Made by a program: the position numbers and the translations under genes. From a virus: a DNA stretch of 42,044 nucleotides. Shown piece after piece: positions 4,576 through 38,728 of this stretch. Numbering within the stretch: the stretch's first letter is position 1; each line of letters opens with the position of its first letter. Below the pieces are notes generated by a model that searched no databases, was not told where the DNA came from, and worked only from the letters and a program-made list of their open reading frames with translations. The stretch lies in the IMG/VR virus record IMGVR_UViG_3300049911_000063, positions 1 through 42,044 of that record; one strand, given 5' to 3'.

Positions 4576-5364
4576 ATGAAAAAGTATCTTGCGGCTCTTT
4601 TCATCGTGGCGTTTGCCGTACTCGCCTTCGGGCAAGTCACTGGCAAATATCTGGGTTTTACTCCTGACCGCTACTGGGATAATAACGGTGTCCTCTGCAC
4701 CGACGGCGCCATTATCCCCAAAGGCGGAATCAACTACGCCACCATCATCCCTGCCGGTACTGTTGGATCACTCATCACTACTGGTACGACCTGGGTTCAA
4801 TTCCCAACGGTTAATGCTGCGGGCATCAAACTCCTACTTGAAAATACGGCCGACACCGGGGAGTTTGCTACCGTACGCCTCCGCGCCCGGGCCAATAACA
4901 CTACGAGCACGGGAAATGGCGGGAACTTCATCGGCACTACAACCTGTATTGATGCTTCAGCCTCGGCTATTGACCATGAATATGGAAATCTCAAGGCCGT
5001 CAATGCTTGCGCCCAGCCTAACGCCTTGAATCAGACAACCGATTCCTCAAATATCGTCACAGCTCTTTATGGACGCATTGACGCAACGGGAACTTCGGTC
5101 GGACGGCGCTGGGTTGGATGGTTCGATACCCATGCCACGACTAAGGCGGCTGGTGGTGATTACTTGGTGCGCCTTTCCCATAACGGGACAATCGCCAATG
5201 ACGGCGCGTTCACTGTCTACAATGGCGGAAGGATGCCCGTGCTGTTCAATTTTGAGGATGCTGCTGGGTTCCTGACCGATAGTGACGGAAGCCATAGTGT
5301 TGCCTCGGGCGCTATCGCCGTGAAGACCCCGGCGGGCACGAAATACATCGTGCTTTACAACTGA
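4576..5364 (+). CDS. secreted beta-rich protein with signal peptide
   Basis: A 262-residue protein starting MKKYLAALFIVAFAVLAFGQ, a textbook Sec signal peptide (cleavage near residue 19-20), unusual for a phage. The mature part is Ser/Thr/Ala/Gly-rich and beta-like, with VRLRARANNTTSTGNGG and a repeated-strand look similar to virion surface or decoration proteins, and ends KTPAGTKYIVLYN. ATG 4576 is chosen because GGAGG lies 6 nt upstream; the in-frame ATG 4564 lacks one. It sits between lysis and packaging genes. It may act in the periplasm or on the cell surface. Function not known. Confidence 0.65.
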   Translation: MKKYLAALFIVAFAVLAFGQVTGKYLGFTPDRYWDNNGVLCTDGAIIPKGGINYATIIPAGTVGSLITTGTTWVQFPTVNAAGIKLLLENTADTGEFATVRLRARANNTTSTGNGGNFIGTTTCIDASASAIDHEYGNLKAVNACAQPNALNQTTDSSNIVTALYGRIDATGTSVGRRWVGWFDTHATTKAAGGDYLVRLSHNGTIANDGAFTVYNGGRMPVLFNFEDAAGFLTDSDGSHSVASGAIAVKTPAGTKYIVLYN

Positions 5365-5366
5365 CA

Positions 5367-5588
5367 ATGGATCGTAAGATCACGATAAGTCTGAAGGCCC
5401 TCATCATCGGGGGCCTTTGCGCTGTTCTCCTATTCTGGGGAGTCCTAAAGATCATCACTATTGAGAAGTCCCTTGATAACGCCCGGCTTGTCATTCAGGT
5501 CCAACAGAACTCGCAGAACATTCAGGCGCTTGATAAGGCATTGGGTGAAGCGCTGAAGCAGATTGAGGAATTGAAAAAGGCGAAGTAA
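5367..5588 (+). CDS. small single-span coiled-coil membrane protein
   Basis: A 73-residue protein with a transmembrane segment at residues 9-28 and a C-terminal coiled coil (QQNSQNIQALDKALGEAL, then EELKKAK). Same topology as the product of 4273-4557, so it is a second spanin-like or lysis-accessory candidate. It starts 2 nt after the secreted protein gene and ends just before terminase. Function not certain. Confidence 0.6.
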   Translation: MDRKITISLKALIIGGLCAVLLFWGVLKIITIEKSLDNARLVIQVQQNSQNIQALDKALGEALKQIEELKKAK

Positions 5589-5592
5589 TCCC

Positions 5593-6144
5593 GTGAAGAA
5601 ATTCCCGGCCCGGCAAGTCCTCTTTGTTCAGGAATACCTGAAGGACTTGAATGCTACCCAGGCCGCAACTCGGGCGGGATATTCTAAAAAAACTGCTGAA
5701 CAACTTGGTCATCAACTACTTAAAAAACCTTCAGTCGCGGCGGCTATTACCAAGGCTCAACAGAAACGGGCTAAGCGTCTTGAAATCACGGCAGATCGGG
5801 TACTCCAGGAAATCGCCATCCTCGCCTTTTCAGACCTCAAGGATTATATCGAAATCAATGACGATACGGGCGCGGTTCGGGCCAAGGGTTTTGACCAAAT
5901 GCCGCTCAATGCAAGCCGAGCCCTAGAATCCATTACAGAGAACCGGACGGTCAGGGAAGACGCCAAGGGCGAGGACTCAATCATCAATGAAAAGGTTACG
6001 TTCAAACTGCACAGTAAGACGGCTGCCCTTGAATCTCTTTGTAAGCATCTTGGGCTTTTTGAGAAAGACAAGGCTCCACTATTCCCGGCGAATATGAAGT
6101 GGGTTTTTGTCTATGACGATAAAGAGAAAAAACAGGGCCAGTGA
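5593..6144 (+). CDS. terS: terminase small subunit
   Basis: A 183-residue protein beginning (GTG start) KKFPARQVLFVQEYLKDLNA, followed by TQAATRAGYSKKTAEQLGHQ: the Terminase_2 type helix-turn-helix that recognises viral DNA at the packaging site. LLKKPSVAAAI and a central helical oligomerisation part follow. The position directly before the large subunit, with a stop-start overlap, confirms the identity. GTG 5593 begins the conserved N terminus. Confidence 0.92.
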   Translation: MKKFPARQVLFVQEYLKDLNATQAATRAGYSKKTAEQLGHQLLKKPSVAAAITKAQQKRAKRLEITADRVLQEIAILAFSDLKDYIEINDDTGAVRAKGFDQMPLNASRALESITENRTVREDAKGEDSIINEKVTFKLHSKTAALESLCKHLGLFEKDKAPLFPANMKWVFVYDDKEKKQGQ

Positions 6145-36402: not shown

Positions 36403-36930
36403 ATGACTCAAGATGAATTAAAAATCATTATCGAAAAACACGGGAAGTGGCTCCGCAATGAGGATGGCGAAGAAAAGGCCGACCTCACCGGGGCCGACCT
36501 CACCGGGGCCAACCTCACCTGGGCCGACCTCACCGGGGCCAACCTCACCGGGGCCAACCTCACCGGGGCCGACCTCACCGGGGCCGACCTCACCTGGGCC
36601 GACCTCACCGGGGCCAACCTCACCGGGGCCAACCTCACCGGGGCCAACCTCACCGGGGCCAACCTCACCGGGGCCAACCTCACCGGGGCCAACCTCACCG
36701 GGGCCAACCTCATTGTTATTCATCCCGGCCCCTGGACAATGATCGTCACTAAAACGCATGTCCACGTCGGATGCGAGAGATTTTTGAATGACAAAAGTGC
36801 CGAAGCCGCCATGCGAATGCTCGCCAAAAAACATAAGGCCCAGGATTTTTTACGGCTCTATATCGAATCTTTAAGGGCGGCGAACAAACTCATGAAGCTA
36901 TCGGCCGTGGCTGCGAACAAAAAGAAATGA
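36403..36930 (+). CDS. pentapeptide repeat protein
   Basis: A 175-residue protein. Residues about 26-105 are 16 pentapeptides of A(D/N)LTG type, which fold as a square beta-helix of four coils. A C-terminal domain follows ([20 protein letters not shown], then a helical basic end). Some such proteins mimic DNA and inhibit gyrase; in phages the role is mostly unknown. The repeat DNA is almost invariant at 15 bp, so the array may have expanded recently. Confidence 0.85.
36478..36717 (+). repeat. 16 x 15-bp coding tandem repeat
   Basis: Unit GCCAACCTCACCGGG with AAC/GAC alternating and two TGG variants. The last seven units are nearly identical in base sequence. It encodes the pentapeptide array and keeps all frames open on both strands. 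Confidence 0.9.
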
Positions 36931-36946
36931 GCCTAGCCATGTTCAC

Positions 36947-37080
36947 AAGGCCGGAGGGCTCTCAGCCTAATCTCAACCGGCCTTTCTCTTTACCCTGGGC
37001 CGCAACGTCATCCCTACCTTGCGGTCCTTTCATTACCCTCCTTTTTCTATCGGGGCCGGGGGTCCGAGTGCTCCCGGCCC
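36947..37080 (+). other. three consecutive GC-rich hairpins (E1-E3)
   Basis: E1: 36947-36954/36977-36984, followed by TTTCTCTTT-like bases and holding a small GGCT/AGCC hairpin. E2: 36997-37005/37019-37027, 9 bp with one G-U. E3: 37053-37060/37073-37080, perfect 8 bp with a 12-nt loop. With element C they fill a 284-bp gene-free gap. One or more may be terminators after the pentapeptide gene. Confidence 0.5.
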
Positions 37081-37104
37081 ACCTCTCTTTAACACTAAGC
37101 ATTA

Positions 37105-37189
37105 GGGCCGGAAGCGGGATGGATGCCCGTGTGTAACTGTTGCTACATGGATAGGGTGCAACTTCATAAAACCCCTATTCGTCCGGCCC
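37105..37189 (+). ncRNA. structured RNA candidate C with H-type pseudoknot
   Basis: Closing helix 37105-37112/37182-37189 (8 bp, perfect). Inside are a hairpin 37114-37118/37126-37130 and a pseudoknot: stem 1 37139-37143/37158-37162 (GTTGC/GCAAC), whose loop base-pairs through ATAGGG (37151-37156) with CCCTAT (37173-37178). Third loop is A-rich. It lies 26 nt before the replisome organiser gene, so it could control its translation, act as an sRNA or be processed. No known riboswitch or ribozyme class recognised. Confidence 0.5.
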
Positions 37190-37214
37190 ACCTCTATGAA
37201 GGGCAATCATAAAC

Positions 37215-37925: not shown

Positions 37926-38276
37926 ATGAATAACTTTTATATCTCCCTCCGGTTCATGCAGTTTCTTTCTAAGCATCGCGGCCGAGAAAACGCCGTACCC
38001 CGAGAGAAAATCTTGGGCCATCTCAAGGCATATTTTCCAAATCTGGATGATAGATCATTTAGGGAACTTTATATCAAGCAGCCAATTTGTGTATGCGAGG
38101 ATGGCCTTTTTGCGCCAAACCTGGACCGGCCGCTTGAGGCGAAAGAATGCTATGAATATTTACTCAAGAGAATTCCGAGAGACCAGGCATGGGCGCGGAT
38201 AAAAATCCTGCTCACGTATTATCCCTGTCTATGGTGGGGGGAAGAAAACCAGATGGATTTATTCGGGCAATCATGA
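37926..38276 (+). CDS. replication-associated protein with beta-clamp-binding tail
   Basis: A 116-residue protein: helical N terminus (YISLRFMQFLSKHRGREN), a winged-helix-like middle (ILGHLKAYFPNLDDRSFREL), and C-terminal QMDLF at residues 109-113, matching the sliding-clamp-binding motif QLxLF. Sitting right after the initiator gene it may link phage replication to the host clamp. Family unknown. Confidence 0.6.
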   Translation: MNNFYISLRFMQFLSKHRGRENAVPREKILGHLKAYFPNLDDRSFRELYIKQPICVCEDGLFAPNLDRPLEAKECYEYLLKRIPRDQAWARIKILLTYYPCLWWGEENQMDLFGQS

Positions 38277-38728
38277 CCAAACGCGCAGCTGGCAACGCAA
38301 ACCAACGCTGGATAGCCGACTGGCTTATTGAGCGCGGATGGACGGTCAGGAACTTTCCCGTGATCAGCCGTCCCATATTCGGCCCAGGCGGTAAGCCGAT
38401 GACGAAAGACGGGCGGATGATATTTAGCCGCCTTTCGCTGGATACTTTCGGGGCTGATTTAGTGGCTCGCAGGGATATGGGAGCGATCAAGGAAAACGGA
38501 ATGCTCCTCTGGATTCAAGCCTCCGGCTCATCCGGCGTGAAAAAGCGGGTCGATGAGTTTAAGAAATATTTCCAATTCCTTCTCCCCGGCGAACATCTCC
38601 AGCTCTGGATAAAGACGGGGACAGCCTGGAACGTGAAAGAGATTCCGATAACCGAAGGGGCTGAGCCGCTTGAGCTTGGAAAAATAATCAGGCGCAAATT
38701 TTACAGCGCGAGCGGGTGGGAGTTCTAA
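38273..38728 (+). CDS. PD-(D/E)XK-like nuclease candidate
   Basis: A 151-residue protein: NANQRWIADWLIERGWTVRN, then LDTFGADLVARRDMGAIKEN and GMLLWIQASGSS, then KRVDEFKKYF. The DLVA...LWIQAS pattern with strand-acidic-strand-Q recalls resolvase-like nucleases (Q or K at the usual catalytic place), possibly a Holliday junction resolvase. Motifs are imperfect. Coupled by ATGA. Confidence 0.5.
   Translation: MTKRAAGNANQRWIADWLIERGWTVRNFPVISRPIFGPGGKPMTKDGRMIFSRLSLDTFGADLVARRDMGAIKENGMLLWIQASGSSGVKKRVDEFKKYFQFLLPGEHLQLWIKTGTAWNVKEIPITEGAEPLELGKIIRRKFYSASGWEF

Follow-up and report, generated by a model that had tools for sequence, protein, structure and literature searches.

The window, as the stretch of DNA analysed here is called, has 42,044 bases and comes from an IMG/VR virus record; its genes include those for terminase, portal and tape-measure proteins. 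The structure described in an earlier note on this DNA lies in a 284-nt gap (36931-37214) that is bordered on its 5' side by a pentapeptide-repeat gene and on its 3' side by rep (Table 1). By its match to phrog_270, the rep product is a phage replication-initiation protein. On the minus strand, from which an antisense RNA against the leader would have to come, a single weak promoter-like site was detected (37257-37230), against a chance mean of 0.7 for such sites. Within the pentapeptide-repeat gene, positions 36480-36712 form a nearly perfect tandem DNA repeat with a unit of ~15 nt, CTCACCGGGGCCAAC/GAC, which suggests a recent expansion.

Table 1. Positions of genes, reading frames and predicted RNA elements around the rep leader of the window
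Feature	Position	Strand	Basis or remark
Pentapeptide-repeat gene	36403-36930		precedes the gap
Leader ORF 1, 69 aa	36927-37136	+	start codon and pentapeptide-repeat stop overlap (ATGA)
Hairpin a	36947-36984	+	AAGGCCGG...CCGGCCTT, then TTCTCTTT; stem kept in L067, inner hairpin changed
Hairpin b	36997-37027	+	GGGCCGCAA...TTGCGGTCC; L067 has the stem with another loop
Copy A, collapsed form of the conserved junction	37053-37080	+	model R1, fold, colinearity with L067
Direct repeat CCGGCCCACCTCT, copy 1	37074-37086	+	3' arm and flank of copy A
Copy B, the structure described in the earlier note	37105-37189	+	alternatives: nested MFE or pseudoknot
Possible second leader ORF, 29 codons	37123-37212	+	frame listing; MPVCNCCYMDRVQLHKTPIRPAHLYEGQS
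Direct repeat CCGGCCCACCTCT, copy 2	37183-37195	+	3' arm and flank of copy B
Probable Shine-Dalgarno of rep, GAAGGG	37198-37203	+	sequence; relatives have GAAAGGA at the equivalent place
rep, replication-initiation protein, 233 aa	37215-37916	+	phrog_270, E 6e-21

Four hairpins in series, a, b, copy A and copy B, are predicted in the 300-nt leader. The leader as a whole folds significantly, with 0/200 shuffles folding as well and a z of -3.0.

Fold of the reported structure

The outer helix of copy B consists of eight perfect pairs (37105-37112/37182-37189), and the hairpin that it encloses has five pairs, including one G-U (37114-37118/37126-37130); both lie where the earlier note had placed them. 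The H-type pseudoknot that was also placed inside the outer helix is possible as a pairing scheme. Its stems S1 (5 bp, 37139-37143/37158-37162, GUUGC/GCAAC) and S2 (6 bp, 37151-37156/37173-37178, AUAGGG/CCCUAU) can form, with UUCAUAAAAC as the third loop, but the pseudoknot is not the predicted fold. The predicted MFE structure is a nested four-way junction of -34.8 kcal/mol, which uses instead a hairpin at 37131-37135/37144-37148 and a hairpin around 37151-37156/37173-37178. The outer helix and the first hairpin together with S1 alone give -26.9 kcal/mol, and with S2 alone -27.2 kcal/mol; by a rough estimate, forming both stems under any usual pseudoknot penalty would be several kcal/mol worse than the nested fold. 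The structure ends 25 nt, rather than 26 nt as first given, before the rep ATG.

Compared to shuffled sequences (-25.8 ± 3.3 kcal/mol), the MFE of the 85 nt is of moderate significance, being matched by 5/500 shuffles and, in a separate run, by 2/200. In a 131-nt context the fold is unremarkable (26/200 shuffles). Pseudoknots with stems of at least 5 and at least 6 bp appeared in 6/3000 shuffles of the inner 69 nt and in 7/300 shuffles of the 284-nt gap, so that one such pseudoknot is unremarkable across the 42-kb window. An 8-bp helix arose in 208/1000 shuffles of the gap.

Rfam 15 gave no match at the gathering score in the window and none that was meaningful up to an E value of 10 in the leader. 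The only Rfam match over the reported stretch was to the Tymovirus tRNA-like element (RF00233), where the stretch AUnGGGUGCAAC resembles one stem; with an E value of 8, 11.3 bits against a cut-off of 40 bits and several broken pairs, it was taken as chance. The string GUUGC...GUGCAA and the order of the helices also led us to consider the pistol, HDV-like, twister and hammerhead ribozymes. The arrangement did not fit these ribozymes, and Rfam reported none of them. No DNA homologues of the leader were found in named phages or plasmids, and the exact 22-nt pseudoknot core was not found in viral contigs. A degenerate pattern used to look for prophages in bacterial genomes gave three matches, which were judged to be chance, the sequences being unrelated and without the expected fold.

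The conserved three-way junction before rep

Relatives of the locus were located in viral contigs through the neighbouring proteins, which selects contigs with a similar gene order. In ~11 other uncultured phages a conserved three-way junction lies just 5' of the replication-initiator gene, and nine of these relatives were aligned by covariance model. The junction has an outer helix of 7-10 bp on which a G-rich hairpin is stacked; between the 5' arm of the helix and this hairpin come an unpaired UCC and then a small hairpin of variable sequence. Six members (L005, L006, L003, L004, L007 and L135) have this architecture directly before rep, with an outer helix of CCGGGAG/CUCCCGG or similar and a G-rich hairpin of GGAGGGG/CCCCUCC, which the 3' outer arm adjoins without a linker. 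Many looser pattern matches in viral contigs fold differently from the element and were excluded from these counts.

Two covariance models were used, R1 built from four relatives and R2 from nine sequences. R1 finds L067 (E 1e-4), L007 (6e-4) and L004 (5e-3), in each case immediately 5' of rep; when it was run with filters off on three divergent contigs, L156 and L146 were added (E 0.005-0.008). R2 finds L189, which is in neither model (E 0.008 in 0.95 Mb), and finds L147 weakly. Searches of whole records returned one copy of the junction per genome, always before rep. Ten relatives and the window have 21-29 nt between the end of the junction and the rep start; L146 has 35 nt.

The helices of the junction covary. 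In the nine-sequence alignment 99.4% of the cells are paired, against 87.8% after shuffling of the partners. Fitting the alignment to the model promotes pairing, and the sequences are related; the small hairpin is accordingly supported less firmly than the outer and G-rich helices. There are 18 double-change cells against a shuffle mean of 5.8, with seven pairs changed on both sides. The covariation is 0.258 against 0.081, a score that none of 500 shuffles reached, and sliding the partners by 1-3 columns leaves only 44-68% paired. RNAalifold recovers the same helices. The substitutions include G-C to C-G and to A-U, A-U to U-G in the outer helix and G-C to A-U in the G-rich hairpin. One pair of the outer helix is A-U in six sequences and U-G in the other three, which favours RNA of the rep-sense strand over a DNA palindrome. 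The element is a real structured RNA family that is not catalogued in Rfam, occupying the slot before rep and having the three-way junction, within a leader ORF, as its core. In this respect the earlier proposal of a structured RNA of no known class is supported, the fold that covaries being the three-way junction; an equivalent of S1/S2 was not found in the relatives read. The pseudoknot appears private to the window phage, of little general weight and unproven as the actual fold.

The nearest relative, L067, is 77% identical to the window over much of the leader and 97% identical over the last 31 nt (window 37183-37213, L067 3786-3816). Its leader has hairpins a and b followed by one compact three-way junction (1/200 shuffles). 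Copy B corresponds to the L067 element in its 3' arm and flank, which are repeated in the window as CCGGCCCACCTCT at 37074 and 37183, and copy A is colinear with the 5' arm of that element. Copy A retains the outer arms GGGCCGGG/CCCGGCCC and the conserved GUCCGA, while both inner hairpins are gone; it scores 18.7 bits with R1 (37056-37077), and its fold was matched by 2/200 shuffles. Copy B has hairpins at 37114-37130 and near 37149-37180 with an extra hairpin in between, and AGCGGG follows its 5' outer arm in place of UCC. Neither model scores copy B as a member of the family. We read it, in its slot next to the ribosome-binding site of rep, as a diverged version of the conserved junction, the window having a reshuffled arrangement of the element. 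Duplication followed by divergence would be the simplest account of the window element, copy A having collapsed and copy B having diverged. Elsewhere in L067, an ORF at 5330-6034 resembles an HNH-type homing endonuclease with repeated N-terminal motifs. It separates the counterparts of 37926-38276 and 38189-38728 of the window, which is without this insert.

It is noted that the protein encoded 5' of the junction in L147, L156 and L189 has an acidic tail at its end (DDDIPF, GDIPF or DDDLPF) like that of single-stranded DNA binding proteins. The upstream protein of L156 had no match in PHROGs. In this subgroup the junction probably lies between ssb and rep, and not between an exonuclease gene and rep.

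Leader reading frames and proposed control of Rep translation

A tiny leader ORF is present in 13/13 loci, with its ATG -4 to +8 nt from the upstream stop codon and overlapping that stop in three. In 10/13 loci its stop lies no more than 25 nt from the rep start, where 1.5 would be expected from shuffling the gap. In the window, only the second frame would give such an ending. Leader ORF 1 stops inside copy B (37134-37136), 78 nt before rep; the second frame overlaps ORF 1, ends 2 nt before the rep ATG and could finish the run. Readthrough of the ORF 1 stop codon was considered, ORF 1 and rep being in the same frame, but further in-frame stops are located at 37152, 37167 and 37197.

Within the leader ORF the 5' arm of the junction usually falls in one phase and the 3' arm in all three, which argues that the RNA is conserved rather than the peptide. 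The N-terminal half of the leader peptide (MN..RES/ARLS) is common to several members. A conserved small protein is less favoured, since the leader peptides have no match in PHROGs and the phase in which the 3' half is read varies. A run of translation seems to have been kept, although the RNA is more conserved than the peptide.

Our preferred reading, which we hold tentatively, is that an intercistronic RNA traversed by ribosomes in the leader controls the translation of Rep; the structure probably tunes the amount of replication initiator made. Ribosomes that finish the upstream gene would resume at the ATG that overlaps or lies near its stop and read the short leader ORF through the junction, thereby opening it. 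They would stop at the rep start, where either these or newly bound ribosomes would initiate Rep. Without a traversing ribosome, the compact junction 21-35 nt upstream would shield or isolate the rep start region and Rep would stay low, so that Rep output would track translation of the preceding operon. The conservation and covariation of the fold, its strand, position and single copy and the presence of the leader ORF are observed, and from them we infer translation of the leader ORF, its coupling to Rep and the direction of control. The Shine-Dalgarno of rep lies outside the junction, so direct occlusion is not evident. Counting against the mechanism in the window itself are the score of copy B with R1 (3.9 bits), its lack of UCC and the early end of ORF 1.

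A wider form of this reading would have a new cis-acting junction RNA, opened by coupled leader-ORF translation, set the initiator level across a group of tailed phages whatever initiator follows, with the duplicated copy in the window having become a pseudoknot switch. The ORF 1 stop lies three nt before S1, and a terminating ribosome could favour one fold over the other. We regard this wider form as quite unlikely.

Several plasmid initiators are reportedly controlled by a leader ORF together with RNA structure, namely repY-repZ of the IncI-alpha plasmid ColIb-P9, which uses a pseudoknot switch, repA of IncL/M, IncB, and tap-repA of R1. The phage loci are similar to the repY-repZ type in having a short leader ORF before the initiator gene that ends near the initiator start and passes through strongly folded mRNA. 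They differ from it in being phage loci, in conserving a three-way junction, and in having the leader inside a longer operon; the pseudoknot was seen in the window only, and no conserved one among the relatives read. The reference list of PMC10724649 includes studies on the control of plasmid replication initiators by leader ORFs and RNA structure.

Among phage elements, the ESAS of Cluster K mycobacteriophages are conserved inverted repeats of unknown function shortly before start codons (PMC3203893). They are 17-bp imperfect repeats found at many genes per genome and are tied to the SAS motif (PMC3203893). The junction resembles ESAS as a conserved phage inverted repeat near a start codon, but it is present in a single copy per genome, only before rep, and has two inner hairpins. 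The SAS motif itself is 13 bp long.

Alternative explanations and significance

The strongest alternative, possible though on the unlikely side, is that the element is an intercistronic stem for mRNA stability, processing or termination, which would set different levels on either side by blocking 3' exonucleases, by an RNase III cut or by partial termination. The very stable GC-rich stems between cistrons are what such a function would use, and they are also the feature shared with REP-like intercistronic stem-loops and intrinsic terminators. T-rich sequence follows the outer helix in L189 and L008. In L189 this stretch is short and is accompanied by a possible promoter, and the outer helix may be a terminator there. 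In two more distant relatives the same slot holds a stem and then seven T's (L154, 2680-2800) or six (L157, 1850-2050), with a sigma-70-like promoter sequence after the stem in the former and before it in the latter; this looks like a terminator plus a new promoter, or an attenuator, before rep. In the window, hairpin a and copy A resemble weak terminators, although the terminator scan lists only copy A, at chance rate. A T-tract directly after the stem of copy B is absent, the sequence there being ACCTCTATGAAGGG. Against this explanation, no T-tract follows the outer helix in nine conserved members (L135, L005, L006, L007, L004, L003, L146, L147 and L156). The fixed unpaired UCC, the three-way junction and the constant distance to the rep start codon would not be needed by a simple stability stem, and the junction differs from REP-like stem-loops and terminators also in its single copy.

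The junction could alternatively be a boundary block at the DNA level, where phage recombination enzymes swap replication modules and the pairing is incidental. The block is kept while the flanking genes change: upstream genes vary between exonuclease-like, short ORF, pentapeptide-repeat and SSB-like types, and several types of rep gene follow it. The rep genes of the window, L003-L007, L067, L135, L146, L147 and L156 are mosaics in which N- and C-terminal domains have been exchanged independently; the Rep proteins of L005 and L156, for example, are 72% identical over the last 104 residues only. The window and L067 have different rep genes despite the similarity of their leaders up to the very end of the gap. 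However, homologous recombination needs neither compensatory changes nor a strand-specific G-U pair, and the sequence of the block differs among members. We consider this explanation unlikely.

Copy B might also be a degenerating relic or a chance fold without function, with the family element functional in the relatives. The low R1 score, the absence of any match with R2, the missing UCC, the only moderate advantage over shuffles and the truncated leader ORF 1 are consistent with a relic. On the other side, copy B has a perfect outer helix and lies at a distance from rep that is within the range of the family, its flank is almost identical to that of L067, and the whole leader folds better than every one of its shuffles. 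That copy B is such a relic or chance fold is, in our judgement, highly doubtful. That the core is a ligand-binding RNA made of outer helix, hairpin and H-type pseudoknot, as the earlier note proposed, is very improbable, because the conserved core is the three-way junction with no S1/S2 equivalent found in the relatives read, the nested fold is predicted to be more stable and the downstream gene suggests no candidate ligand pathway, even though such pairing can form and seldom arises when the inner 69 nt are shuffled, and no Rfam family fits. The observation of the earlier note is partly confirmed, and its interpretation partly supported.

The level of the initiator decides the timing of phage replication, and control of this kind is hardly known in uncultured phages. 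The junction is a candidate RNA family absent from Rfam, and under the preferred reading of ribosome-traversed control it would be an example of a phage counterpart to the leader-ORF control of plasmid copy number. A portable RNA that keeps its place while initiators are exchanged would usefully illustrate how mosaic phages retain control over a module that has been swapped.
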